64,000 nt of DNA. It comes from Amorphoplanes friuliensis DSM 7358 (lineage in GTDB: Bacteria > Actinomycetota > Actinomycetes > Mycobacteriales > Micromonosporaceae). Each line of letters starts with the position of its first letter. Within the stretch, counting starts at the first letter, position 1. Below are positions 3,032-45,770 of the stretch, one piece after another. Both the position numbers and the translations under genes were made by a program. The notes under the pieces are model-generated. The model was not told where the DNA came from and searched no databases. It saw only the letters and a list, made by a program, of their open reading frames with translations. The DNA lies in NCBI RefSeq assembly GCF_000494755.1, contig NC_022657.1, positions 6,974,001 to 7,038,000 on the forward strand, in the 5' to 3' direction.

Positions 3032-6000
3032 GTGCATCCGGCCTCTCCCCCGGCGCCTCCCCGAGCGCCCAGACCCCGCCGCTGGCGCCGGTTGATCCCC
3101 GTCACCGTGCTCGCCGTCGTCGCCGCCTATCTCGGCGTCGTGCAGCTCACCGCGCACGCCGCCGATTCGTTGCTGTCGCAGGGCAGGACAGCCACCGCCT
3201 CGTCGCAGGAGGGCGCCGACGTCGCGGCCGCCAACGCGGTCGACGGCAACGCCGGCACCCGCTGGTCCAGCGTCTTCGCCGACCCGCAGTGGCTGCAGGT
3301 CGACCTCGGCGCGACCGCCACCATCAACCAGGTCGTGCTGCAGTGGGAGGGCGCGTACGGCAAGGCGTACAAGATCCAGACCAGTGCGAACGGCACCACC
3401 TGGACCGACGTCTACTCGACCACCATCGGCGCGGGCGGCACGGAAACGCTGGCCGTGACCGGAAGCGGCCGGTACGTCCGGATGTACGGCACCGCGCGGG
3501 CGAGCGGCTACGGCTACTCGCTCTACGAGTTCAAGGTCTACGGCTCGACCGGCGCCACACCTCCGCCGGCCGAATGCGGCACCAGCAACGCCGCGCAGGG
3601 CAGGACCGCCACCGCGTCCTCTCAGGAGGGTGCGGACGTCTCGGCCGCGAAGGCCGTCGACGGTGACGCGGGATCACGCTGGTCCAGCGTCTTCGCCGAC
3701 CCGCAGTGGCTGCAGGTCGACCTCGGCTCCAGCCAGACGATCTGCCAGGTCGTGCTGCAGTGGGAAGGCGCGTACGGCAAGGCGTACAAGATCCAGACCA
3801 GTGCGAACGGCACCACCTGGACCGACGTCTACTCCACGACCACGGGCGCCGGCGGCACCGAGACGCTGACCGTCAGCGGCACCGGCCGCTACGTGCGCAT
3901 GTCCGGCACCGTGCGCGGCAGCGGCTACGGCTACTCGCTCTACGAGTTCAAGGTCTTCACCGGTGGTGGTGGCACCCCGCCGACCGACCCGACCACCCCG
4001 CCGCCGATCCCGGGCAACTTCACGACGGTCTGGACCGACGACTTCACCGGCGGCGCCAACACCTCACCGAACTCCGCGAACTGGCTGCTGCGCACCGGCA
4101 CCCAGTACCCCGGCGGCGCCGCCAACTGGGGCACCGGTGAGGTCGAGACCGCGAGCGACTCCACCGCGAACGTCTACCTCGACGGCGCCGGCAAGCTCAA
4201 CATCAAGGCGATCCGGGACGGCGCGGGCAAGTGGACCTCCGGCCGGATCGAGACGCAGCGCACCGACTTCGAGCCGCTCGCCGGACAGCAGACGAAGTTC
4301 ACCGCCGTCCTCAAGCAGCCCGACGTCGCCAACGCCGCGGGGTACTGGCCCGGCTTCCGCGCGACCGGCGCGGCCTACCGCGGCAACTACACCAACTGGC
4401 CCGGTGTCGGCGAGACCGACATCATGACCGACGTCAACGGCCGCAGCCAGCTGTCGCAGACCCTGCACTGCGGCACCGCGCCCGACGGGCCGTGCGCCGA
4501 GTACAACGGGCGGCAGAGCGGGCTGGCCAGCTGCACCGGCTGCCAGACCGGATTCCACGAGTACACCCAGATCGTCGACCGGACCAGGACCGACGAGGAG
4601 ATCCGCTTCTACCTCGACGGCCGGCAGACGTGGGTCGTGCGGCAGTCGCAGGTCGGGGTCACCGCGTGGAACGCCGCCGTGCACCACGGCTTCTTCCTCC
4701 GCTTCGACCTGGCCATCGGCGGCTCGCTGCCGAACGCCATCGCCGGTTTCACCACCCCCACCCCGGAGACCACCTCCGGCGGGGTGCTCAGCGTCGACTC
4801 CGTGACGGTCGCCCGCGCCACCGGCACCACGCCGGCCGCTATGACCGACCCGGCCACACCGTCCGGACCGTCGACCGTGCGGGTCACCGGCTCCCAGGGC
4901 AACTGGCAGCTCACCGTCAACGGCTCCCCGTACGAGGTCAAGGGCATCACGTACGGCCCGCCGCAGGCCGCCGCCGACGGGTACATGCGCGACCTGAAGA
5001 ACATGGGCGTCAACACGATCCGCCTCTGGGGTGTCGACGACACCAACACCCCGGTGCTGCTCGACCGCGCCGCCCAGCAGGGCATCAAGGTCGTCGTCGG
5101 GCACTGGCTCAACCAGGGCGCGGACTACGTGAACGACACCGCGTACAAGACCAACACGAAGAACGAGATCGTGGCCCGGGTCAACGCGCTCAAGGGCAAG
5201 CAGGGCGTCCTGATGTGGGACGTCGGCAACGAGGTCATCCTCACGATGCAGGACCACGGGCTCTCCGCCGCCGAGGTCGAGGCGCGGCGGGTCGCGTACG
5301 CGAAGTACGTCAACGAATTGGCCGTCGCGATCCACGCCGCGGACCCGAACCACCCGGTCACCTCGACGGACGCGTACACCGGGGCGTGGAAGTACTACAA
5401 GGCCGACTCGCCCGCGCTGGACCTGCTGGCCGTGAACTCGTACGGCGCGATCGGCGGCGTCAAGCAGGACTGGATCAGCGGCGGTTACACCAAGCCGTAC
5501 ATCCTGACCGAGGGTGGCCCGGACGGCGAGTGGGAGGTGCCCAACGACGTCAACGGGGTGCCGACCGAGCCGACCGACCTGCAGAAACGCGCCGGGTACA
5601 CCGCGAGCTGGAACGCCATCAAGTCGCACCCGGGTGTGGCGCTCGGCGCGACCGAGTTCCACTACGGTCTCGAGAACGACTTCGGCGGCGTGTGGCTCAA
5701 CACCTTCACCGGCGGCTGGCGCCGGCTCGGGTACCACGCGCTGAAGCAGGCGTACACCGGGCAGGCCTCGGCGAACACCCCGCCGGAGATCAACTCGATG
5801 TCGGTGAGCAACCAGACCGCCGTACCGGCGGGCGGGACGTTCACCATCAACGCCGGTGTCAGCGACCCGAACGGTGACCTGATCCGCTACAACCTGATGT
5901 ACAGCAACAAGCACATCACCGGCGGGACCGGCCTCACCAACGTCGTCTTCACCGACAACGGCAACGGCTCGTTCACCGCGAAGGCCCCCGAACAGCTCGG

Positions 6001-6490
6001 GGTCTGGAAGGTCTACGTCTACGCCTTCGACGGGCAGGGCAACGTCGGCATCGACCAGCGCTCGTTCAAGGTGGTTCCGCCGACGATCCCCGGCACGAAC
6101 CTGTCGCAGGGCAAGACCGTCACCGCGTCGTCCTACCAGCCGACCGGCACGAACGGACCACAGCTGCCCGCGTACGCCGTGGACGGCAACTACAGCACCC
6201 GCTGGGCCAGCGAATGGGTCGACACCGCCTGGGTGCAGGTCGACCTGGGCTCGGTGCAGTCGTTCAACCGGGTGCTGCTGGCCTGGGAAGCCGCGTACGC
6301 CAAGGGGTACACGGTCCAGGTCTCCGACAACGGCAGCACCTGGACCACCGTCCACACCGCGACGGCCGGCAACGGCGGCTTCGACGACCTGGCGATCTCC
6401 GGCACCGGCCGGTACGTCCGGGTCAACGGCACCGCCCGCGCCACCGATTACGGCTACTCCCTGTGGGAGCTCGGCGTCTACCGCAGCTGA
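3032..6490 (+). CDS. Secreted multidomain glycosidase: GH16-like + clan-A barrel + three discoidin domains
   Basis: A 1152-residue exported protein. The GTG at 3032 is preceded by AGGAG at 3022-3026. Order: Arg/Pro-rich n-region and signal peptide ending AHA near residue 43; discoidin (F5/8 C, CBM32-like) domains at about 45-172 and 185-310; Pro/Thr linker; GH16-like domain about 328-600; a TIM-barrel domain about 612-925 with WDVGNE (acid/base Glu734) and ILTEGG (nucleophile Glu827), as in clan GH-A; an Ig-like domain about 930-1015; and a third, more divergent discoidin domain to the end. In the GH16-like part the catalytic motif reads GETDIMTD (Glu461, Asp463, then Thr466), so the usual acid/base Glu is absent. 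The likely substrate is a beta-glucan or similar polymer (inference). Two LacI-type operators precede it and a hairpin terminator follows. Confidence 0.88.
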   Translation: MHPASPPAPPRAPRPRRWRRLIPVTVLAVVAAYLGVVQLTAHAADSLLSQGRTATASSQEGADVAAANAVDGNAGTRWSSVFADPQWLQVDLGATATINQVVLQWEGAYGKAYKIQTSANGTTWTDVYSTTIGAGGTETLAVTGSGRYVRMYGTARASGYGYSLYEFKVYGSTGATPPPAECGTSNAAQGRTATASSQEGADVSAAKAVDGDAGSRWSSVFADPQWLQVDLGSSQTICQVVLQWEGAYGKAYKIQTSANGTTWTDVYSTTTGAGGTETLTVSGTGRYVRMSGTVRGSGYGYSLYEFKVFTGGGGTPPTDPTTPPPIPGNFTTVWTDDFTGGANTSPNSANWLLRTGTQYPGGAANWGTGEVETASDSTANVYLDGAGKLNIKAIRDGAGKWTSGRIETQRTDFEPLAGQQTKFTAVLKQPDVANAAGYWPGFRATGAAYRGNYTNWPGVGETDIMTDVNGRSQLSQTLHCGTAPDGPCAEYNGRQSGLASCTGCQTGFHEYTQIVDRTRTDEEIRFYLDGRQTWVVRQSQVGVTAWNAAVHHGFFLRFDLAIGGSLPNAIAGFTTPTPETTSGGVLSVDSVTVARATGTTPAAMTDPATPSGPSTVRVTGSQGNWQLTVNGSPYEVKGITYGPPQAAADGYMRDLKNMGVNTIRLWGVDDTNTPVLLDRAAQQGIKVVVGHWLNQGADYVNDTAYKTNTKNEIVARVNALKGKQGVLMWDVGNEVILTMQDHGLSAAEVEARRVAYAKYVNELAVAIHAADPNHPVTSTDAYTGAWKYYKADSPALDLLAVNSYGAIGGVKQDWISGGYTKPYILTEGGPDGEWEVPNDVNGVPTEPTDLQKRAGYTASWNAIKSHPGVALGATEFHYGLENDFGGVWLNTFTGGWRRLGYHALKQAYTGQASANTPPEINSMSVSNQTAVPAGGTFTINAGVSDPNGDLIRYNLMYSNKHITGGTGLTNVVFTDNGNGSFTAKAPEQLGVWKVYVYAFDGQGNVGIDQRSFKVVPPTIPGTNLSQGKTVTASSYQPTGTNGPQLPAYAVDGNYSTRWASEWVDTAWVQVDLGSVQSFNRVLLAWEAAYAKGYTVQVSDNGSTWTTVHTATAGNGGFDDLAISGTGRYVRVNGTARATDYGYSLWELGVYRS

Positions 6491-6536
6491 GCAACGGACC
6501 GACGGCGGACGTCTGGCGGTGGCCGCCGTACCGGAA

Positions 6537-6574
6537 CCGTGGCGCCCCTTCCTTTCCGGGAGGGGGCGCCACGG
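6537..6574. terminator. Hairpin terminator after the glycosidase gene
   Basis: Arms of 12 bases (CCGTGGCGCCCC and its complement) separated by a 14-base loop, starting 46 bases after the glycosidase stop, followed by CGCTTTG. It separates the glycosidase from the next plus-strand gene at 6594. Confidence 0.75.
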
Positions 6575-6593
6575 CGCTTTGTAGAGTCGATGG

Positions 6594-7922
6594 ATGTCCA
6601 GCGTGATCGAGCTCGGGCTGATCCCCGGTGACGCTCCCGAGCCGCCGGCACGCCCGCGGCGGCTGCGGGTGCCCCCGCGGACCGGGGTCGTGGTTGTCGC
6701 GGTCCTGTGCGCGCTCACGCTCACCGGATCGGCGCTGCCGCGTTCGCGGGCGCCGCTCCCGCTCTGGAGCATCCGCCTCGACGTCAGTGTCGCCAGCTCC
6801 TTCGCCGTGACGGGCGACGGCGTCTACGTCCTCACCGGTACGAGCCAGGGGCGCCGGCTCACCGCTTACGACCGGCGTACGGGTGTCTCCCGCTGGAGTG
6901 TTCCGGTGGCACGGCTCGCGAGCAGCTTCGGCCTGGTCCGGGCCGGGGTGATCCAGCTGGCGGTCGAGCCGGAACCGGCCGTCGAGTGGCAACAGGACGG
7001 CAGCCGGGTCAGCCGCACGACCGGGCGGAGGACCATCGGCATCGACGCGGCCACCGGACGGCAGCTCTGGATGCTTCCCGGTGATCTCTCCTTCACCCGG
7101 GACGGACTGGCCGTCGCCGCCGACTGGGACGAAACGGGTTCCGTCCTGCTGTCCTTGCGCATCGTCGACGTCCGGAGCGGTGCCACGGTTTGGACCCACC
7201 CGGCCCGAGGTCTGAGTTCCTGGGGGCTCTCCGACACGATCGCCGCCAGCCGCGTGGTTACCGCAGCGCCCGACGGCCGGGTCGAGGTCCGCGACCTCGC
7301 CGACGGCCGGCTGGTGACGTCACGCGTGCTGCCACAGCTCACGCGGACCGGGCCGGACGACGCTCCGGCCGACCTCGGCGTCGCCGGCGATCTGGTCCTG
7401 CTCAAGGAGCAGGAGGCCCTCACCGCGCACGACGCGACGACGTTGCGCGAGCGGTGGCGCCTCGGCACCGAACGGTTCCAGGGCTCCTACGGCTGTGCGC
7501 CGATCCTGTGTGTCACCAGCGATTCGGGGACTGCCGGCGTCGACCCGGCCACCGGGAGGCAGCTCTGGCGGCGTCCGGGCAGCGGCCTGTCGATCGACCT
7601 GGGTGCCGGCGTCGTCCTGGACCAGGGCAACGACGGAAGCCGGTCGGCGCTGATCGACACCGCCACCGGGCGCACCCTCGTCGACCTGGGCTCGGGCGGC
7701 GTGGCGTGGAACGACGGCGAGGCCGTCGAACCGTTGCCCGTGCTGCTGCCGACCCGCGACCCGGCGGGGCGCACCGCGGCCGGCCGGCTGGACCAGCGCA
7801 CGGGCCGGGTCACCTGGCTGGGCACGATCGACCCGGTGGGCAGTTTCGCCTGCCGATCGGCGGGCGCCATCATGGCCTGTGTGACCGGCTTCGAGCTGAC
7901 GGTCATCGACCTCGCACCCTAG
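6594..7922 (+). CDS. Membrane-anchored PQQ-like beta-propeller protein, copy 1
   Basis: A 442-residue protein with one membrane-spanning segment near the N-terminus (about residues 28-46) and a large extracytoplasmic region. It is built from PQQ/WD-like blades: recurrent patterns such as RLTAYDRRTGVSRW, GIDAATGRQLWML, VRSGATVWTHP and GVDPATGRQLWRR mark successive blades ending in Trp. Quinoprotein catalytic residues are not evident, so it is probably a binding or scaffold propeller rather than a dehydrogenase. It is followed after nine bases by a close paralogue in the same orientation, so the two are likely co-transcribed. Function unknown. Confidence 0.78.
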   Translation: MSSVIELGLIPGDAPEPPARPRRLRVPPRTGVVVVAVLCALTLTGSALPRSRAPLPLWSIRLDVSVASSFAVTGDGVYVLTGTSQGRRLTAYDRRTGVSRWSVPVARLASSFGLVRAGVIQLAVEPEPAVEWQQDGSRVSRTTGRRTIGIDAATGRQLWMLPGDLSFTRDGLAVAADWDETGSVLLSLRIVDVRSGATVWTHPARGLSSWGLSDTIAASRVVTAAPDGRVEVRDLADGRLVTSRVLPQLTRTGPDDAPADLGVAGDLVLLKEQEALTAHDATTLRERWRLGTERFQGSYGCAPILCVTSDSGTAGVDPATGRQLWRRPGSGLSIDLGAGVVLDQGNDGSRSALIDTATGRTLVDLGSGGVAWNDGEAVEPLPVLLPTRDPAGRTAAGRLDQRTGRVTWLGTIDPVGSFACRSAGAIMACVTGFELTVIDLAP

Positions 7923-34180: not shown

Positions 34181-37045
34181 GTGCCCGTTGAACGCTGGTC
34201 CACCGCCCAGATCACCGCCCTGGCCCCCGACGCGAGTTCGCTGAAGGGTGCCCGTGGTGTCAGCAGTGCGTCGAAGTGGCAGGAGGCCGGGCTGCTCGAC
34301 GAGGTGCTGTGGGGGCTGTGCCGGGGCAGCGGCAAGAACCCCTATCAGGTGTGTGTCGACCTGGCCGGGCCTGTGTACAAGTGCTCGTGCCCGAGCCGGA
34401 AGTTCCCGTGCAAGCACGCGCTCGGGCTGCTGCTCCACTGGGCCGAGGGTGGTGGTTTCACCGCGCCGGCGCCCGCGTTTGTCAGCGAGTGGCAGGCGAG
34501 TCGCGCGGCCAAGGTTGCCGCGCCGAAAACCACCGGGACGGCCGACCCCGCCGCGGCGCAGAAAAGAGCGCTCCAGCGCGCGGACCGGGTCGCGGCGGGC
34601 ATGACCGAGCTGCGGCGCTGGCTCGACGACCAGGTGCACCAGGGCCTGGCCGGGGCGGAGCAGGCCGGGCACCGGCCGTACGAGACGATGGCCGCCCGCC
34701 TCGTCGACGCGCAGGCACCGACGGCTGCCTCGGCCGTGCGGCGGCTCGGCGGGGTCGCGGGCATCGGGCCGCACTGGGCCGACCGGCTGCTCGGCGATCT
34801 TGCACTGCTGCGCCTGCTGGTCGCGGGTCACGAACGCCTCGACACCTTGCCCGACGCGCTGGCCGCGACGGTCCGGGCCCGGATCGGTTTCCCGGTCGCG
34901 ACCGAGGACGTCCTCGCCACCACACCGGTCCGCGACGAGTGGCAGGTGCTGGGACAGGTCGACAGCGAGGACGGCGCCATCACGACACGCCGGACCTGGC
35001 TGCTGGGTGTCTCCGGTGGACGGTTCGCGCTGGTGCTGTCGTTCGCGGCGCCGGGGCAGTCACTGACCGCCGACCTTCTGCCGGGGACGACCTTCGACGG
35101 CGCTCTCTGCTTCTATCCGGGAGCCGCTCCCCTGCGGGCCCTCGTCAAAGAAAAATTTGGTACGCCCCGGCCGCTGACCACACCGTCCGGTGCCCGGGGC
35201 CTGCGCGACGCGCTCGCCGGATGGTCCACGACGGTCGCCGCCGAGCCCTGGCGGTACGACGCGCCGGTGTTGCTGGCCGGCGTGGTGCCCGGCCCGGACG
35301 GGTTCCTCGTCGACGCCGCCGGGGAGTCGCTGCCGCTCGCGCCCGGCCACCGGGAGCCGTGGTGGCTGCTGGCCGCAGCCGGAGGACGTCCCGCGACGGT
35401 GGCGGGTGAATGGTCGCCCTCGGGCCTGCGACCACTGGCCGCCTGGGTGCGGGGACAGTTCCTTCCGGCGGCCGCCCCGGTGCCGGACGGGCCGAGCGTG
35501 CGCGGTCCCGAGCTTCCGGCCGACCTGCTGGCGGCGGCGCTGGTGGGAACGGCCCGGCGGCCCTGGAGCTCACCCGACATACACGTCGGCGACCGTGTCC
35601 TGACCATGTCCAAGGGCGGCGAGCTGCTCGAGGCCGCCGGCGCCGCCCTGGTCTACCGGCGGGCCGGGATCACGCCCTCGGCCGGGCACGCTCCGGTCGA
35701 GGCGGCCCCCGTGGAGATCGACCGGCCGTTGCCGGAGGCGGCCGGGGCCCGGTTGCTGCGGCTGCTGACCGACGGTGGTGCGCCCGGTGGCGCCCAGCAG
35801 GCGCAGGAGCTGCTGTCCCAGTGGCTCTTCGCCGCGGCCCAGCGCGGCGGATTTGTCCCGCCCGAGTCGCTGCCCGCACTGCTCGACGCCGGACGCCGCA
35901 ACAGTGCCGTCCGGCCCGCGATCGGGCGGATCGCCGGTCAGCGCGGCACCTGGCTCGCCCGGATGCGCCCCGACTGGAAATGGCTCAGTGACGAGGCGCC
36001 CGGCACGGCCACCTCCGACGACCCGGAGATCTGGGAGACCGGCACCGGGGGCGAACGCCTGGCCTACCTCACCAAGCTCCGCGGCACCGACCCCGGCGCC
36101 GCGCTCGCCCTGCTGGAGAGCACGTGGAAAACCGAGGCGCCCGAGGACCGCGCCCGTTTCCTCGGCGCCCTAGACATCGGCCTCTCCCCCGCCGACGACA
36201 CGTTCCTCGACCGGGCACTCGACGACCGGCGCAAAGAGGTCCGCGAGACCGCCCTCGACCTGCTGCAACGGTTGCCCGGATCGTCGCTGGGGCAACGCAT
36301 GGCGGCCCGGGCCACGGCGGCGGTGCGGCTCGAACGCCGTACCTTCGGGCGTGACCGGCTGCTCGCCGACCCACCCACCGAGCTGACCCCCGACCTGCGG
36401 CGCGACGGGGTTGCGGCGCAGCCGTCCCGGGGTACGGGGGTGCAGGCCTGGCTCCTCGAGGAGATCATCGCCGGCACTCCCCTGACCACCTGGACCGAGG
36501 CCTTCGACCGCTCCCCGGCTGCGGTGGTCGACCTGGCCCGCAACAACGACTGGGAGACGCCGCTGCTGCACGGCTGGGCCAAGGCCGCGATCGTGCAGGC
36601 CGACCCCACCTGGGCCGCCGCGCTGGTCAGGAACGACACCCGGGAGAGCGCCGCCGGGCTGCGCGAGGCCGTCCGCTGGGACCTGCACCTGCTGCTGCCC
36701 CCGGCCGACCTGGCCCGGATCGCCGCCGACTTCCTCCGGCGCGAGGACCACCTCGCACACCGCCTGCTGGCCGTGCACCCGGGCGCGTGGCCGGACGAGC
36801 TGGCCGTCGCGGTGGTGGAGACGATCGCCCACCGGGCCCGGACCGACAAACACAGCTGGCAGCTCGCCGAGCTGTGCCGGGCCGCGGCGATGGCGATGCC
36901 CCCGAAGTACGCGATGCACGTCGCCGGGCTGGCCGAACAGCTCGATCAGCAGCCGGCCGACCCGTCGCGCGTACGGCCGGTCGCCGAGCTGGCACGCACC
37001 CTGATCTTCCGCGCGGAGATGCTCGACGAGCTCGCCTCCGAGTGA
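34181..37045 (+). CDS. SWIM zinc-finger protein fused to a DUF5691 domain
   Basis: A 954-residue protein, first of a four-gene operon. The N-terminal part carries a SWIM zinc finger (KCSCPSRKFPCKHALGLLL, pattern CxC-x6-CxH, about residues 66-80), which binds Zn2+ and can contact nucleic acid or protein. From about residue 443 (DLLAAALVGTARRPW) the sequence matches what I know as DUF5691, an alpha-helical repeat domain. In other actinomycetes these two parts are usually separate neighbouring genes, so this is a natural fusion. A GTG start at 34181 is used. The operon partners are a MoxR-like ATPase, a DUF5682 protein and a VWA protein; the function of the set is unknown. Confidence 0.85.
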   Translation: MPVERWSTAQITALAPDASSLKGARGVSSASKWQEAGLLDEVLWGLCRGSGKNPYQVCVDLAGPVYKCSCPSRKFPCKHALGLLLHWAEGGGFTAPAPAFVSEWQASRAAKVAAPKTTGTADPAAAQKRALQRADRVAAGMTELRRWLDDQVHQGLAGAEQAGHRPYETMAARLVDAQAPTAASAVRRLGGVAGIGPHWADRLLGDLALLRLLVAGHERLDTLPDALAATVRARIGFPVATEDVLATTPVRDEWQVLGQVDSEDGAITTRRTWLLGVSGGRFALVLSFAAPGQSLTADLLPGTTFDGALCFYPGAAPLRALVKEKFGTPRPLTTPSGARGLRDALAGWSTTVAAEPWRYDAPVLLAGVVPGPDGFLVDAAGESLPLAPGHREPWWLLAAAGGRPATVAGEWSPSGLRPLAAWVRGQFLPAAAPVPDGPSVRGPELPADLLAAALVGTARRPWSSPDIHVGDRVLTMSKGGELLEAAGAALVYRRAGITPSAGHAPVEAAPVEIDRPLPEAAGARLLRLLTDGGAPGGAQQAQELLSQWLFAAAQRGGFVPPESLPALLDAGRRNSAVRPAIGRIAGQRGTWLARMRPDWKWLSDEAPGTATSDDPEIWETGTGGERLAYLTKLRGTDPGAALALLESTWKTEAPEDRARFLGALDIGLSPADDTFLDRALDDRRKEVRETALDLLQRLPGSSLGQRMAARATAAVRLERRTFGRDRLLADPPTELTPDLRRDGVAAQPSRGTGVQAWLLEEIIAGTPLTTWTEAFDRSPAAVVDLARNNDWETPLLHGWAKAAIVQADPTWAAALVRNDTRESAAGLREAVRWDLHLLLPPADLARIAADFLRREDHLAHRLLAVHPGAWPDELAVAVVETIAHRARTDKHSWQLAELCRAAAMAMPPKYAMHVAGLAEQLDQQPADPSRVRPVAELARTLIFRAEMLDELASE

Positions 37046-37135
37046 CGGAATTCTTGTCAGAGGTGCTGAGTAACGTGCTTTTCAGCAGCACCGCCGGGTG
37101 ATCGGCCCGGTCGTGCGAGAGGACAGGGAGCTCGA

Positions 37136-38197
37136 GTGACCGCACTGCGACCGCACGCCGAGGATCAGTATGCCGAGGAGCTGGCGCTGCTCGCCGGGAC
37201 GGACGACCGGCCGCGCCCGCCGGGCTGGCGACTCTCCCCGCAGGCGGTGGTGACGTACCTCCTCGGTGACGGCGCGAAGATCACCCCGAAGTACGTGGGT
37301 CCGCGGCGGCTCATGGAGGTCGCCGTCTCCACGCTGGTCACCGATCGTGCGCTGCTGCTGCTCGGCGTTCCCGGCACGGCCAAGACCTGGGTCTCCGAGC
37401 ACCTCGCGGCGGCCATCTCCGGCGACTCGACCCTGCTCGTGCAGGGCACGGCCGGCACCGCCGAGGAGGCCATCCGCTACGGGTGGAATTACGCCCGCCT
37501 GCTCGCCGACGGCCCGTCCGAGGCAGCCATCGTGCCCAGCCCGATCATGCGCGCCATGCAGACCGGCACGATCGCCCGCATGGAGGAGCTGACCCGTGTC
37601 CCCTCCGACGTGCAGGACGCCCTGATCACCGTCCTCTCCGAGAAGACTCTCCCGGTGCCGGAGCTCAACACCGAGGTCCAGGCCCAGCGCGGCTTCAACC
37701 TGATCGCCACGGCCAACGACCGCGACCGCGGCGTCAACGAGCTGTCCAGCGCCCTGCGCCGCCGCTTCAACACCGTGGTCCTCCCCATGCCCGCCTCCGC
37801 CGACGACGAGGTCGAGATCGTCGCGCGCCGCGTGGCCCAGCTGGGCCGGTCGCTCGCCCTGCCCGAGGTCCCCACCGCCCTCGAGGAGATCCGCCGGGTC
37901 GTCACCGTCTTCCGCGAGCTGCGCAGCGGCCTCACCGAGGACGGCCGCACCAAACTCAAATCCCCGACCGGCACCCTCTCCACCGCCGAAGCCATCTCCG
38001 TCATCACCAGCGGCATGGCTCTGGCCGCCCACTTCGGCGACGGCCGCCTCCACCCCTCCGACGTCGCCTCCGGCATCGTCGGCGCCGTCATCAAGGACCC
38101 CGTCTCCGACAGCGTCGTCTGGCGCGAATACCTCGAAACAGTGGTCCGCGACCGCCCCGACTGGCGAGACTTCTACCGAGCCGCCCGCGATGCCTGA
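37136..38197 (+). CDS. MoxR-like AAA+ ATPase
   Basis: A 353-residue AAA+ protein. Walker A is LLGVPGTAKTWVSEHL, the Walker B region is around IARMEELTRVPSDVQDAL, sensor 1 is LIATANDRDRGVNE and the arginine-finger region is SSALRRRFN. This is the MoxR/RavA-type layout, in which the ATPase acts as a chaperone together with a VWA-domain partner; such a partner is encoded two genes downstream. The GTG start at 37136 follows AGGGAG. It overlaps the next gene by eight bases, so translation of the two is coupled. Confidence 0.92.
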   Translation: MTALRPHAEDQYAEELALLAGTDDRPRPPGWRLSPQAVVTYLLGDGAKITPKYVGPRRLMEVAVSTLVTDRALLLLGVPGTAKTWVSEHLAAAISGDSTLLVQGTAGTAEEAIRYGWNYARLLADGPSEAAIVPSPIMRAMQTGTIARMEELTRVPSDVQDALITVLSEKTLPVPELNTEVQAQRGFNLIATANDRDRGVNELSSALRRRFNTVVLPMPASADDEVEIVARRVAQLGRSLALPEVPTALEEIRRVVTVFRELRSGLTEDGRTKLKSPTGTLSTAEAISVITSGMALAAHFGDGRLHPSDVASGIVGAVIKDPVSDSVVWREYLETVVRDRPDWRDFYRAARDA

Positions 38198-41086
38198 AAA
38201 GCACTACGGCATCCGCCACCACGGCCCGGGCTCAGCCCGTGCGGTGGTCCAGGAGCTCGATCGCCAACGCCCCGACCTCGTCCTGATCGAAGGCCCACCG
38301 GAAGCCGACTCCCTGATCCGCTGGGCCGCCGACACGGGCCTCGAACCCCCGGTCGCCCTCCTCGGCTACGCCACCGACGACCCGAGCCGCGCGGCGTTCT
38401 GGCCCTTCGCGGTCTTCTCCCCGGAATGGCAGGCGATCAAATGGGCGGTGGAGCACGGAGTGCCGGTCCGTTTCTTCGATTTGCCCTACGCCTTCCGCCT
38501 GACCGACGCCAAGACGCCCGACGCCCCACCGGCCGCGGGGCCGCCGCCAGCGCTCGCACCACCGTCCAAACAGGACGCTGAAGGCTCCGCGGCACCGGCT
38601 GACGGTGGTCCGGTTCCGGCCGCTGGGCCGAACTCTTCGCGGCCGGTCCCCACCTCGCCGGACGAGCGCCTCGCACCGAACACCGACGAACTGGCCGCAT
38701 TACCCGCCGAGACCGAGATCGACCTGGCTCTGGAAGAACTCCCCGCGGCCGGCCCAGACCCCGCGCCTGGCTTGAGCACTGCACCTAGCAGCGGCTCTCC
38801 CCCCGGCCGCAGCGCCACGCCCAGCTCAGGCGCCACACCCGGCCGTGACTTGCCTTCCGGCCCCGGCGCCGCAGCCGGTGATGACCTTTCGCTCAGTCAC
38901 GACCCCACGCCGAGCGTGGATGCTCCGTCGAACAGCAACCAGCCGCCCAGTCTCGACGTCACGTCCCGGCTGGGCGCAGCACCCGGCTCCGATACCTCGC
39001 CGGACCTCAGCCCCACGCCCAGCCCCGGCGCTGCGTCCGGAAGTGACTCTGCGCCTGGTAGGGCGGCTGTGCCCAGTAGTGAGTCCGCGCCCGGCCGCGA
39101 GCCCGTCCCCGGAGGAGATGACTCCCCACACGGCGTGGACGCTCCGGCTGGTGAGGGTGACGCGCCGGGTCACGGTGAGAGCGGCGCACCTGACCTGCTG
39201 GAGACCTCCGACCTCGGGGCTGCGCCTGGCGGGGAGGTTGAGGCCGGGCGGCGGGTTCGGCCTGTCGATCCGATCGGGGAGTTGGCCGCTGCGGCCGGGT
39301 ATGACGATCCCGAGCGGTGGTGGGAGGACGTGGTCGAGCATCGGGGGATGCCGGCGTTCGAGGCTGTCGGGGAGGCGATGGCGGCCATTCGGGAGACGTC
39401 CGCCGAGGATCCTGAGGATCTGGTTCGTGAGGCTTACATGCGGACCGTGCTGCGGGAGGTTCGGAAGACGCACGAGAACATCGCTGTCGTTTGTGGAGCG
39501 TGGCATGTTCCGGCGCTGACGGGGAAGGTGACGGCGCGGGAGGATGCCGCGTTGCTCAAGGGGCGGAAGAAGGCGAAGGTTTCGTTCACCTGGGTGCCGT
39601 GGACCTATGGGCGGCTGGCTTCGTGGTCCGGTTACGGTGCCGGGGTTCGGTCGCCGGGGTGGTACCACCATCTGTTCACCGCCACCGACGAGGTTGTTCC
39701 GCGGTGGCTGGTGGATGCGGCCGGGGTGTTGCGGGCCGAAGGAGTTCCGACGTCGTCGGCGCATGTCATCGAGGCGACACGGCTGGCCGAAGCGCTGGCC
39801 ACGGTTCGGGGTCGGCCGCTGGCCGGGCTGGCCGAGGTCACCGAAGCGGCCGAGGCCGTCATGTGTGACGGGGAGCCGTTGCGGGTGGCGTTGATCGACC
39901 GGCGGCTGGTGGTCGGCGAGCGGCTCGGTGGGGTGCCCGAGGACATGCCGGCCGTACCGCTCGCCAAGGACCTTGCTGCGCAGCAGAAGAGGGTGCGGCT
40001 GAAGCCGGAGGCGCTCGAGCGCACCCTCGAGCTGGACCTGCGCCGGGACATCGACCTGTCGCGGAGCCGGTTGCTGCACCGGCTGCGGGCGATCGGTGTG
40101 CCGTGGGGTGAGGCCGAGACGGCGCGGAGGGGCACCGGCACGTTCCGGGAGACGTGGAAATTGCGGTGGCATCCGGAGTTCGCGGTGCAGCTGGTCGAGG
40201 GCAGCATGTGGGGAACCACCGTGGCGGCCGCGGCGACCACGAAGGTGATCGACGCAGCGCGGAAAGCCGCCACGCTCGGGGATGTGACCGAGCTGGTCGA
40301 GGTGTGCCTGCTGGCGGACCTGACCGACGCCTACCCCCAGGTGCTGGACGCCCTCGACAGCCGGGCGGCGGTCGACGCGGACATCAACCACCTCATGGCG
40401 GCGATTCCCGCGCTGGCGCGGACCCTCCGGTACGGCGATGTCCGTCGCACCGACGTCGCCGGACTGTCCACAGTGACCGCGAGTCTGCTGACGCGGGTCT
40501 GCGCCGGGCTGCCGGCGGCCGTGGGTTCGCTCTCCGACGAGGCGGCCAAGGAGATGCGCGGACGCATCGACGGGGTGCACTCGGCCGTGAGCCTGCTCGA
40601 CGACGAGGAGTTGCGGGAGCGGTGGCTGACCACTCTCGCCTCCGTTTCGCAGCGCGCCGATCTGCACGGGCTGCTGGCCGGGCGGCTCACCCGGCTGCTG
40701 CTCGACGCCGGGCGGCTCGGGCTCGCCGAGGTGCAGCGACGGCTGCGGCTGCCGCTCACCATCGGTACGCCGCCGGCACGTGGTGCTGCCTGGGTGGAGG
40801 GGTTCCTGTCCGGGGGCGGGCTGCTGCTGGTGCACGACGACGCGTTGCTGGAGCTGCTCGACGGGTGGCTCGCCGACATCGCACCGGAGGCGTTCGACGA
40901 CGTGTTGCCGTTGTTGCGCCGTACCTTCGGGGGTTTGCCTCCGGGGAGCGGCGGGCGATCGGTGAGCGGGTCGCCGGGCCGGGAGCGGCCGGGCGGGCCG
41001 TGGCCGAGGAACTGGTGCTGGACCACGACCGGGCGGCGCTGGTGCTGCCCACCCTGAGTGCGCTGCTGGGCCGGGAGGTCTCATGA
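38190..41086 (+). CDS. DUF5682-family protein with low-complexity insert and 3' frameshift
   Basis: About 965 residues if the frame is restored. The open frame ends at 41057 with an aberrant tail (GRRWCCPP). One extra G in the run at 40929-40933 restores FGGFASGERRA and a natural stop at 41084-41086 that overlaps the next ATG (ATGA). The N-terminus (HYGIRHHGPGSARAV, LVLIEGPPEAD) and VVCGAWHVPALTG recall the TraB/EreA/ChaN-like fold, by inference. Residues about 106-354 are a Pro/Gly/Ser/Ala-rich, probably disordered insert; ordered sequence resumes at ERWWEDVVEH. The operon position between MoxR and VWA genes suggests one complex. The frameshift may be real, programmed, or a sequencing error in a G run. 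Confidence 0.82.
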
Positions 41087-42267
41087 CGGACAACGAGGAC
41101 CCGGCGCGGCGGGAACGTCTGCGCCGGTGGCGGCTCGTGCTGGGCGGCCCGGCCGAGGAAGCGCTGGGGTCGGCGGACGGCCGCGACGGTGCGATGGACG
41201 CGGCGCTGGCCGCGCTCTACGACGGCAACGGCGACAACGACGGGTCACGTACCTCACGGTCGGCCGGGCTGGGCGGGTCCGCGCCGAAGGTCGCCCGGTG
41301 GCTGGGTGACATCCGCGAATACTTCCCCAGCACCGTCGTGCAGGTGATGCAGGCCGACGCGATCGAACGTCTCGACCTGACCCGGCTGCTCCTCGAACCG
41401 GAAATGCTGGAGGCCGTCGAACCCGACGTGCACCTCGTCGGCACGCTGCTGTCGCTCAACCGTGTGATGCCGGAGAAGACGAAGGACGCGGCGCGGCAGG
41501 TGGTCCGCAAGGTCGTCTCCGAGCTGGAGCAGCGGATCTCGCAGCAGACCCGGACGGCGGTCAACGGTGCGCTGAACCGGGCGGCGCGGATCAACCGGCC
41601 CCGGCACGCGGACATCGACTGGGACAAGACGATCCGCGCGAACCTCAAGCACTACCAGGCCGAACACCACACGGTCATCCCGGAACGCCTGGTCGGGTAC
41701 GGGCGGCGGGCCACCGCCATCCAGCGTGACGTGGTGCTGTGCGTCGACCAGTCGGGGTCGATGGCGGCGTCGGTGGTGTTCTCCGGGGTCTTCGCGGCGG
41801 TGCTGGCGTCGATGCGGTCGCTGCGGACGTCGCTGGTCGTCTTCGACACGGCGGTGGTCGACCTGACCGACCAGCTCAGCGACCCGGTGGAGGTGCTGTT
41901 CGGCACCCAGCTCGGTGGCGGCACCGACATCAACCGGGCCATCGGCTACAGCCAGCAGCTCATCACCCGGCCCCGGGACAGCATCTTCGTGCTGATCAGC
42001 GACCTGTACGAGGGTGGCGTCCGTGCGCAGATGCTGCGCCGCGTGGCGGAGATGACGGCAGCGGGAGTGCAAGTGGTGGTTCTGCTGGCGCTGTCGGACG
42101 AGGGGGCGCCGGCCTACGACCACGAGAACGCGGCGGCTCTGGCGGCGATGGGCGTACCGGCGTTCGCGTGCACACCCGACGCTTTCCCCGACCTGATGGC
42201 GGCGGCGATCGAACGCCGCGACCTGATGGCGTTCGCGGAACGCCTGGCCGACAAGGGAGACAAGTGA
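41083..42267 (+). CDS. VWA-domain protein, partner of the MoxR-like ATPase
   Basis: A 394-residue protein. The C-terminal half is a von Willebrand A domain with an intact MIDAS (VVLCVDQSGSMAASV, the DxSxS motif, and the later Thr in GGGTDINRAI and Asp in LISDLYEG). The N-terminal ~190 residues are helical (IREYFPSTVVQVMQADAIERL). VWA proteins paired with MoxR ATPases act as metal-dependent adaptors for chaperone substrates. Its ATG overlaps the restored stop of the DUF5682 gene by four bases. It ends the operon, with a hairpin just downstream. Confidence 0.9.
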   Translation: MTDNEDPARRERLRRWRLVLGGPAEEALGSADGRDGAMDAALAALYDGNGDNDGSRTSRSAGLGGSAPKVARWLGDIREYFPSTVVQVMQADAIERLDLTRLLLEPEMLEAVEPDVHLVGTLLSLNRVMPEKTKDAARQVVRKVVSELEQRISQQTRTAVNGALNRAARINRPRHADIDWDKTIRANLKHYQAEHHTVIPERLVGYGRRATAIQRDVVLCVDQSGSMAASVVFSGVFAAVLASMRSLRTSLVVFDTAVVDLTDQLSDPVEVLFGTQLGGGTDINRAIGYSQQLITRPRDSIFVLISDLYEGGVRAQMLRRVAEMTAAGVQVVVLLALSDEGAPAYDHENAAALAAMGVPAFACTPDAFPDLMAAAIERRDLMAFAERLADKGDK

Positions 42268-44016: not shown

Positions 44017-44815
44017 GGAGAAAGGCCAGCAGGGCGCTGTTCACCGCGTCCGGCTGCTCCAGATAGCCGTAGTGGCCGGCGTCCGCGATCTCCGCGTACC
44101 GCGCGCCGGGGATCGCCGCCGCCAGTTCGCGGCCGCGGACGGCCGGGGCGATCAGGTCGTCGGCGAACGACATCACCAGGGTGGGGACGGTGATGGTCCG
44201 GTACGCCGCGCGGCGGTCGGTGTCCACGGTGACGCCGAGCTGCGCCCGATGGCCGGCGTCGGTCCAGTCCGTCGGCGACATCTCCAGGATGTCGAGCCAG
44301 TCCTGCGCGGTCACCGGGTCCTCGAGCGTACGCGGGGAGAGGTTCTGCAGCGCACGAGTGACCGCGTCGTACTCCGGTGGCAGCACAACACCGGCGGCGA
44401 CCAGGGCACGTTCGGCGGCGGCGAGTGTCGCGGACACCGCGTCGGGGCGCGCCCGGCCCGCCATCAGCACGGCCCGGTACACCAGGTCGGGGCGCGTGAC
44501 CAGCAGCTCCTGCACCACGTAGGCGCCCATCGACGTACCGATGAGCCGGCAGGGACCACCCACGACCTGCTCGATCACCGCGACGGTGTCACCGACGAGG
44601 TCCGCGATCGACAGGCCGGGCACGGCCGGCCCGCTCTTGCCCACGCCCCGGTTGTCCAGGGTGATCGCGCGGTATCCGGCGGCGACCAGCGCCGGCACCT
44701 GGTGCAGCCACCAGGTGCGGCCGCGCGCCGCCGTTCCGGGGATCAGGAGGACAGGCGCGCCCCGCCCGGACTCCTCGTAGTGCAGGGTGATGTCACCGAC
44801 ACCGATCGCAGGCAT
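44009..44815 (-). CDS. Alpha/beta-fold hydrolase
   Basis: A 268-residue hydrolase of the classical fold: oxyanion region LLIPGTAARG, LDNRGVGKSG, nucleophile elbow IGTSMGAYVVQEL (Ser in GTSMG), acid in SFADDLIAP and catalytic His in IADAGHYGYLE. It begins MPAIGVGDITLHY, and the ATG at 44815 is chosen because that start is typical. It resembles proteins annotated as 3-oxoadipate enol-lactonase-like or lactone/ester hydrolases. It is the first gene of the operon with the PPTase; a thioesterase-like role in the same pathway is possible but unsupported. Confidence 0.9.
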   Translation of the reverse strand: MPAIGVGDITLHYEESGRGAPVLLIPGTAARGRTWWLHQVPALVAAGYRAITLDNRGVGKSGPAVPGLSIADLVGDTVAVIEQVVGGPCRLIGTSMGAYVVQELLVTRPDLVYRAVLMAGRARPDAVSATLAAAERALVAAGVVLPPEYDAVTRALQNLSPRTLEDPVTAQDWLDILEMSPTDWTDAGHRAQLGVTVDTDRRAAYRTITVPTLVMSFADDLIAPAVRGRELAAAIPGARYAEIADAGHYGYLEQPDAVNSALLAFLHD

Positions 44816-44858
44816 GATCGTGAGGCTAGCCGACCGCCGGAAAGGCCATACTGTCCCG

Positions 44859-45770
44859 ATGCGACCGGAGATCCGAGCGATGGTCACCGGCTTGCCGCGT
44901 GAGCCCGGCGTCTACCGTTTCCGCGACGAGCGGGGGCGTGTCCTCTACGTCGGGCGGGCCACCGAGCTGCGCAGCCGTGTCGGTTCCTACTGGGGTGAGC
45001 TGCACGGCCGGCGGCATCTGCGGCGCATGGTCGCGGCGGTGGTCCGGATCGAGGCGGTGACCTGCGCGTCCGTTCACGAGGCGGCGTGGCTGGAACGCAA
45101 CCTGCTCGAGGAGTCGCTCCCCCGGTGGAACAGGACGCGCGGCGGGCAGGAGGTCCCCGCGTACCTGCGGCTGGATGGGCGACCGGCGACACCCGGGCTG
45201 CGCCTCACTCACGATGCGGGGCAGGCGGTCGCGGGGGTTCGGGTTTTCGGGCCCTATCTCGGTGGGGCGCGGGCGCGGCTCGCGGTCGGCGCACTGCACC
45301 GGCTGCACCCGCTGGCCTACGCCACGACCGCCCTGACGGGTGCGGAGCGTGACCTGGCCGCACAACGCGGAGTGACCGCGGCCGACCGGGAAGAACTCGT
45401 GGCGGCGCTCGTGGCGGTCCTTCAGCGTGATCCGGTCGCGGTCGCGGCCGCCCGGCACAAGCTCGAGACGGTACGCGACAGAGCAGCCGGATCCCTCGCC
45501 TTCGAACTCGCCGGCCGGGTCCAGGAGGAGCTGGCCGCCCTGGCCTGGATCACGGCTCCGCAGCAGGTCACGACGCTGGAGCCGGGCGACTACGCCGTGC
45601 AGGGGTGGTCCGACGGATGGCTGGTGTCGTTCGCCGTGCGCGACGGCCGGGTCCGGTCGTGGAGCCAGCGCCGCAGCGCGCAGCCCCGCCCGGCGCTGCC
45701 GGAGGCCTGGGCCGGGTTCGCCCAGCGTAATGCCGAGCTGGCCGCGACCCTGGCTAGGCTTTCGGCGTGA
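44859..45770 (+). CDS. GIY-YIG nuclease-domain protein (UvrC N-terminal-like)
   Basis: A 303-residue protein whose N-terminal ~95 residues are a GIY-YIG domain: EPGVYRFRDERGRVLYVGRA, with the conserved Arg in TELRSRVGSYW and Glu in EAAWLERNLLEE. The next region resembles the central part of UvrC (PGLRLTH, VFGPYLGG), but the UvrC RNase H-like and HhH domains are missing, so it is not the excision-repair UvrC itself. It may be a DNA-repair or junction nuclease. It overlaps the following acetyltransferase gene by four bases (GTGA), heading a five-gene plus-strand run. Confidence 0.87.
   Translation: MRPEIRAMVTGLPREPGVYRFRDERGRVLYVGRATELRSRVGSYWGELHGRRHLRRMVAAVVRIEAVTCASVHEAAWLERNLLEESLPRWNRTRGGQEVPAYLRLDGRPATPGLRLTHDAGQAVAGVRVFGPYLGGARARLAVGALHRLHPLAYATTALTGAERDLAAQRGVTAADREELVAALVAVLQRDPVAVAAARHKLETVRDRAAGSLAFELAGRVQEELAALAWITAPQQVTTLEPGDYAVQGWSDGWLVSFAVRDGRVRSWSQRRSAQPRPALPEAWAGFAQRNAELAATLARLSA

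Follow-up and report, generated by a model that had tools for sequence, protein, structure and literature searches.

What could a MoxR ATPase be doing when it is encoded together with a von Willebrand factor A (VWA) protein, a zinc-finger protein and a member of the family DUF5682? The question is raised by a four-gene operon at positions 34181-42267 of a stretch of 64,000 nucleotides from Amorphoplanes friuliensis DSM 7358 (contig NC_022657.1, positions 6,974,001 to 7,038,000), referred to here as the window. The operon encodes, in this order, a SWIM-DUF5691 fusion, a MoxR-type AAA+ ATPase, a DUF5682 protein and a VWA_CoxE-type protein; open reading frames (ORFs) and Pfam matches agree with the first-pass annotation of this DNA in placing all four genes on one strand, the + strand, on which every window feature described below also lies. 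The analysis suggests, with a probability of roughly 45%, that the operon is an actinobacterial YehL-type MoxR system, in which a MoxR/VWA motor would remodel clients for a TIKI-like hydrolase, DUF5682.

The operon and its Escherichia coli counterpart

The cassette is not new: its core is the yehL-yehM-yehP-yehQ cluster of Escherichia coli K-12 (2204596-2210944), which encodes a MoxR ATPase (YehL), a DUF5682 protein (YehM, 2.4e-98), a VWA_CoxE protein (YehP) and a SWIM protein (YehQ), and both the window operon and the E. coli cluster thus hold MoxR, DUF5682, VWA_CoxE and SWIM genes together. YehL is listed among the named MoxR subfamilies in PMC3893208. The window MoxR is 42% identical to it in a pairwise comparison, and the two have in common a Walker B motif with the residues EE. 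The E. coli cluster differs from the window operon in that its SWIM gene comes last and in the presence of a DUF4132 gene, yehI, upstream; no DUF5691 profile match was found in the E. coli control genome. Outside the SWIM domain, the match between YehQ and the window SWIM protein is weak (unshuffled profile score 24.1, probability 1%), and a relationship of DUF5691 to DUF4132 or YehQ was discarded after profile comparison gave nothing. Matches to the 6.3-kb yehLMPQ stretch occur in 5301 of the 5426 E. coli genomes searched, in 5162 cases over at least 80% of its length. The literature searched contained neither a function for yehLMPQ nor a paper naming DUF5682 or DUF5691; the earlier description of the set had overlooked its identity with yehLMPQ.

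The Pfam matches of all four window genes exceed the family cut-offs, while an NCBIfam scan of the operon gave no match over its own. The first gene (34181-37045) encodes a protein of 954 residues in which Pfam, an AlphaFold2 model and a fold search recognize a SWIM zinc finger, a beta domain and a DUF5691 HEAT-like solenoid. The zinc finger spans residues 59-87 (CSCPSRKFPCKH; 34355-34441; PF04434, 1.2e-5), and its C.C...PC.H pattern is present in 72 ORFs of related loci; the DUF5691 region covers residues 448-951 (35522-37033; PF18944, 1.6e-148) and consists of paired helices. The model (predicted local distance difference test score, pLDDT, 93.5) comprises the SWIM domain, a helical part, the beta domain (approximately residues 250-430) and the solenoid (approximately 519-952), which is HEAT/ARM-like and retrieves importin- and PP2A-scaffold-like folds with Z values of 7-9, as is common for such repeats. 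DUF5691 is thus, as modelled, a HEAT-like solenoid.

The second gene (37136-38197; AAA_5, 4.3e-39) encodes a YehL-like MoxR AAA+ ATPase with the Walker A motif GVPGTAKT and the Walker B motif RMEEL. Walker A is present in 78 of 78 copies, the arginine finger in 76 and the sensor 1 pattern in 71. Walker B has the unusual form R-x-EE in all 78 copies and in YehL, the usual ending being DE. The fourth gene (41083-42267; VWA_CoxE, 1e-53) carries the motifs DQSGSM, GGGTDI and LISDLYEGG of a metal ion-dependent adhesion site (MIDAS), which are kept in 73, 72 and 74 of 74 copies, respectively. Walker A and B, sensor 1, the arginine finger and the VWA MIDAS are therefore intact, as expected of a MoxR-VWA pair. 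The chaperones NorQ/NorD and CoxD/CoxE likewise combine a MoxR ATPase with a VWA protein whose MIDAS is intact, and the window VWA belongs to the CoxE family; the window operon departs from them in having no known cofactor enzyme, in its additional SWIM-solenoid and DUF5682 proteins, and in the EE of its Walker B. The domain evidence fits the roles first proposed for SWIM-DUF5691 (a receptor that recruits) and for MoxR (a motor), whereas the VWA protein, taken at that time for a putative effector, is more likely a co-chaperone of the MoxR motor.

Linkage, distribution and types of locus

A DUF5682 profile scan of 84,980 genomes confirmed at least 585 relatives, and among the best 80 loci of those surveyed BLASTP found MoxR at 78, SWIM at 75, VWA at 74 and DUF5691 at 73. 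All absences fall at contig ends, with the single exception of a VWA gene at locus L084 (see below). SWIM and DUF5691 are fused in 11 of the 80 loci (L054-L063, L121); in the other loci with both, each has an ORF of its own, and in Streptomyces-type loci this pair is divergent from MoxR. A phylum sample of 296 genomes contained DUF5682 in 21 and DUF5691 over cut-off in 18, and in each of these 18 DUF5691 adjoins DUF5682 (at about 4 kb or less); three sub-threshold DUF5691 matches were all in genomes without DUF5682. MoxR and VWA lie beside DUF5682 in 19 of 20 neighbourhoods, hand-chosen from places in 16 of the 21 DUF5682 genomes, the 20th (L049) being a 4.4-kb contig that begins at DUF5682. 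These last two counts uphold the proposal that the gene set acts as a unit, and frequent separation of the genes, named by the first-pass annotation as the result that would speak against it, was not encountered in the genome survey.

In the window's genus, DUF5682 is present in 60 of 60 genomes. Approximately 20 Streptomyces-type loci have identical recurrent neighbours around the cassette, which, going by sequence features, we take to be sucC, sucD and the gene of a UvrD-type helicase, and a search of IMG/VR found no relatives. Because of the prevalence in E. coli and in the genus, the housekeeping-like neighbours and this lack of relatives in IMG/VR, the distribution is that of a core function and not of a defence island.

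The loci fall into four types, and at each locus MoxR, VWA and DUF5682 were assigned to one and the same type, with no mixing across types I-IV. Type I comprises the window-like loci, whose MoxR proteins are 69-77% identical to that of the window, as compared to 43-45% in the other types. Type II (L051, L046) resembles the E. coli cluster and has DUF4132 upstream; a SWIM gene was found in L051 and not in L046. In type III, DUF5682 and VWA_CoxE share a single ORF (L035; L050 by BLAST), a fusion that, judged from sequence, implies a stable complex of the two. Type IV (L034, L052, L053) consists of VWA, MoxR and a distant DUF5682, preceded by an ORF of about 490 residues. The window's own genome carries a second set, of type IV, at 6386-12099 of L034 (approximately 3514885-3520598 of contig C1); a further ORF lies at 4509-6890 of this locus, and a DUF4407 gene is found downstream of the set. 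A DUF4132 gene precedes type II/III sets in L035 (17509-18603), L051 (3975-7637, with WGR), L046 (18887-19900) and L004 (4280-7912), and is likely a fifth component of these sets, occupying the position of yehI in E. coli. The ORF of about 490 residues in type IV and an ORF in type III were considered as relatives of the SWIM protein that lack the zinc finger, and both were rejected, as their scores were reached by 29 and 49 of 100 shuffles, respectively.

The DUF5682 protein and the TraB/TIKI hydrolases

The DUF5682 ORF, as read in the window, encodes 955 residues (38190-41057; PF18934, 1.9e-261), the homologous frame running to 41086. The protein was first taken for an adaptor; its conserved residues and a profile match point instead to a predicted enzyme, with an N-terminus that looks like those of TraB/TIKI hydrolases. 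A putative first active-site motif, GIRHHGP (G7-P13; 38208-38228), is followed by E34 (codon 38289-38291, within VLIEGP), which is placed on the region around E66 when aligned to TraB, and by two motifs supported by kept residues and the TraB alignment, namely RExxM (R413-M417; 39426-39440) and a second GxxH motif, GAWH (G436-H439; 39495-39506). In alignment A1 (16 sequences of types I-III), R9, H10, H11, P13, E34, R413, E414, M417, G436 and H439 are invariant, and H10, H11, E34, R413, E414, M417, G436 and H439 are present in 101 of 101 mapped copies from all four types. This mapping covered 102 ORFs, L098 being split over two, with its C-terminal half as the odd cell at E34. The invariant residues of eight TraB/GumN sequences are G37, H40, E66, R227, G248 and H251, and G7, H10, H11, E34, R413, E414, M417, G436 and H439 of DUF5682 follow them in order. 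Both families thus present GxxH, E, R and GxxH in the same succession and with similar spacing, and TIKI enzymes, the superfamily to which TraB/GumN belongs, are described in PMC6254334 as using two histidines and two glutamates. DUF5682 differs from TraB/GumN in its RE in place of RN, its double HH, its long helical-repeat C-terminus and its tie to a MoxR/VWA pair.

In hhalign, the N-terminus of DUF5682 scored 30.1 against TraB, with RExxM...VVCGAxH placed on RNxxW...VGAxH, and a second alignment placed GVRHH...IEGP on the TraB motifs GSIH...VEAD. This score lies above the maximum of 200 column shuffles (22.3), above that of 17 unrelated real families (23.8) and above those of MoxR, VWA, SWIM and DUF5691 (14.6-19.9). 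A positive control, TraB against the erythromycin esterase family Ere, scored 17.8, and hhalign therefore misses a relation given in the literature. As a separate observation, the window's genome contains four erythromycin-esterase-family genes (L139, L145, L147, L149).

An AlphaFold2 model of the DUF5682 protein from a relative (L058; pLDDT 85.5, predicted template modelling score 0.77) combines an alpha/beta domain at the N-terminus with a helical repeat at the C-terminus. Because the C-terminus dominates, searching the Protein Data Bank (PDB) with the whole model yields helical-repeat matches (E >0.01). In BFVD, Foldseek ranks a TraB family protein first, albeit as a weak match (E 7.7e-3, probability 1.00). 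The top row in VIA is 7w5z_E (Z 9.2, root-mean-square deviation 4.8, 170 residues), the only one of the 50 VIA rows shown that lies on residues 1-204; according to a figure legend in PMC10060162, the 7w5z complex of Tetrahymena contains a TraB-family subunit.

Two features distinguish the window copy. Alignment with eight of eight near relatives (L054-L058, L060-L062) places a one-base deletion at approximately 40929-40937: the relatives' C-termini (LLRRTFG..GERRAIG) agree with the window's other frame, ORF 40154-41086, and type I DUF5682 profile matches end at position 725-727 in 57 other genomes of the genus and at 683 in the window. The stop of ORF 40154-41086 overlaps the VWA start (ATGA), an arrangement also present in L054, L055, L056, L060 and L061. 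The deletion is either a real mutation or an assembly error. Translational coupling of the last three genes, as had been proposed, is consequently borne out in part: the 3' end of the MoxR ORF overlaps the DUF5682 start by 8 nt, but in the sequence as given the stop of the DUF5682 ORF, at 41057, falls 25 nt short of the VWA ATG, and coupling fails there because of the missing base. The SWIM-DUF5691 gene, ending 90 nt upstream of MoxR, is not coupled to it. The second feature is a Pro/Ala/Ser-rich insertion (approximately residues 107-352; 38508-39245; alignment A1) that is absent from most relatives; its roughly 245 residues form imperfect repeats, and long ORFs are also seen in the nearest relatives, L054 and L055.

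Ten window neighbours were scanned, and the eight with Pfam matches are all ordinary (regulatory, metabolic, acetyltransferase or GIY-YIG); among genes downstream of the operon, that at 44787-45770 encodes a GIY-YIG nuclease-domain protein.

A proposed machine and its alternatives

From the linkage, domains and conserved residues observed, we infer the following order of events. Judged by their families, a ring of MoxR and a CoxE-type VWA protein acting as its co-chaperone would form an ATP-driven remodelling motor. The SWIM-solenoid protein would select and recruit a client, which the VWA MIDAS would grip and MoxR would pull; DUF5682, a predicted TraB/TIKI-like hydrolase at its N-terminus followed by a helical-repeat region and probably a metal-dependent peptidase, would then cut or process it. 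The system would probably serve constitutive protein maturation or quality control. Such a machine is favoured because MoxR/VWA pairs pull clients gripped by the VWA MIDAS, as described in PMC9976466 and in section 8 of PMC7159879, and because type III ties DUF5682 to VWA. A bolder proposal, which we regard as rather doubtful, is that a new class of ATP-dependent bacterial proteases has DUF5682/YehM as its proteolytic subunit, the MoxR/VWA motor passing clients chosen by the SWIM-solenoid receptor to a metallopeptidase of the TIKI type. A single actinobacterial genome would then hold several machines of this kind that differ in their receptors (SWIM-DUF5691, DUF4132 and others), and one of the machines would be core in E. 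coli.

A number of results weigh against a TIKI-like hydrolase served by such a motor. The hhalign probability for DUF5682 and TraB is only 12%; Foldseek of the DUF5682 model gave no PDB or BFVD match at E<=0.001; and neither the TraB profile nor one TraB-like protein, used as queries, retrieved a relative of solved structure, so that 7w5z_E was not identified by sequence as TraB. Ere, tried as a second TIKI yardstick, was abandoned: its score of 23.8 exceeds 200 shuffles but is equalled by one of the 17 unrelated families, and it provides no evidence. Finally, in L084 (206-2536; from a cyanobacterial metagenome assembly) the DUF5682 motifs are intact and other genes lie downstream, and none of them is a VWA gene.

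The main rival, itself doubtful, makes DUF5682 the client. As its private chaperones, MoxR and VWA would insert a metal or otherwise activate the enzyme, which would then work alone, much as nitric oxide reductase is served by NorQ/NorD and CO dehydrogenase by CoxD/CoxE. Metalloenzyme maturation is common for MoxR/VWA pairs in the accounts given by the two sources just cited, and DUF5682 is the sole enzyme-like protein of the operon and a constant partner in all types; however, the type III DUF5682-VWA fusion is more typical of a permanent subunit, and this reading would leave no need for SWIM and solenoid receptors. An improbable variant is that the TIKI-like fold of DUF5682 binds only a ligand (metal, haem or peptide), in an enzyme-free chaperone. 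ChaN is a haem binder. PMC6254334 mentions TIKI-superfamily members without the catalytic set, but the candidate catalytic residues of DUF5682 are all invariant across four distant types. Least probable of all is the idea of a biological-conflict or anti-phage system, akin to the ternary vWA-MoxR systems described by Kaur et al. 2020 (VMAP, iSTAND, beta-propeller), which can appeal to a MoxR/VWA pair with an obligatory third component, to occurrence in Actinobacteria with large genomes and to a weak bpMoxR similarity (23.2 bits, below the cut-off of 27), but which is disfavoured, along with the defence role initially considered possible, because the cassette belongs to the core of both E. coli and the window's genus, has recurrent housekeeping-like or otherwise ordinary neighbours and no viral copies, and gave no significant match to PADLOC defence models when the window was scanned. 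The window cassette has DUF5682 as its third partner, shows no variable effectors and, in contrast to the ternary systems, is core and not patchy in E. coli; VMAP, iSTAND, FtsH and beta-propeller families gave nothing over Pfam cut-offs in the operon, and SWIM, TIKI and YehL, searched for in Kaur et al., are not mentioned there.

What is new, as far as the search extended, lies in the TraB/TIKI and solenoid assignments, in the distinction of four types and in the core status. MoxR proteins form a large AAA+ clade, of which the YehL branch has no role in the literature searched even though its operon is present in nearly every E. coli. The TraB/TIKI reading leads to a prediction of an active site that can be mutated (H10, E34, E414 and H439 in the window protein, and their YehM equivalents) and that is testable in K-12. 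If it is true, a TIKI-type hydrolase would join the list of enzymes powered by AAA+ motors.

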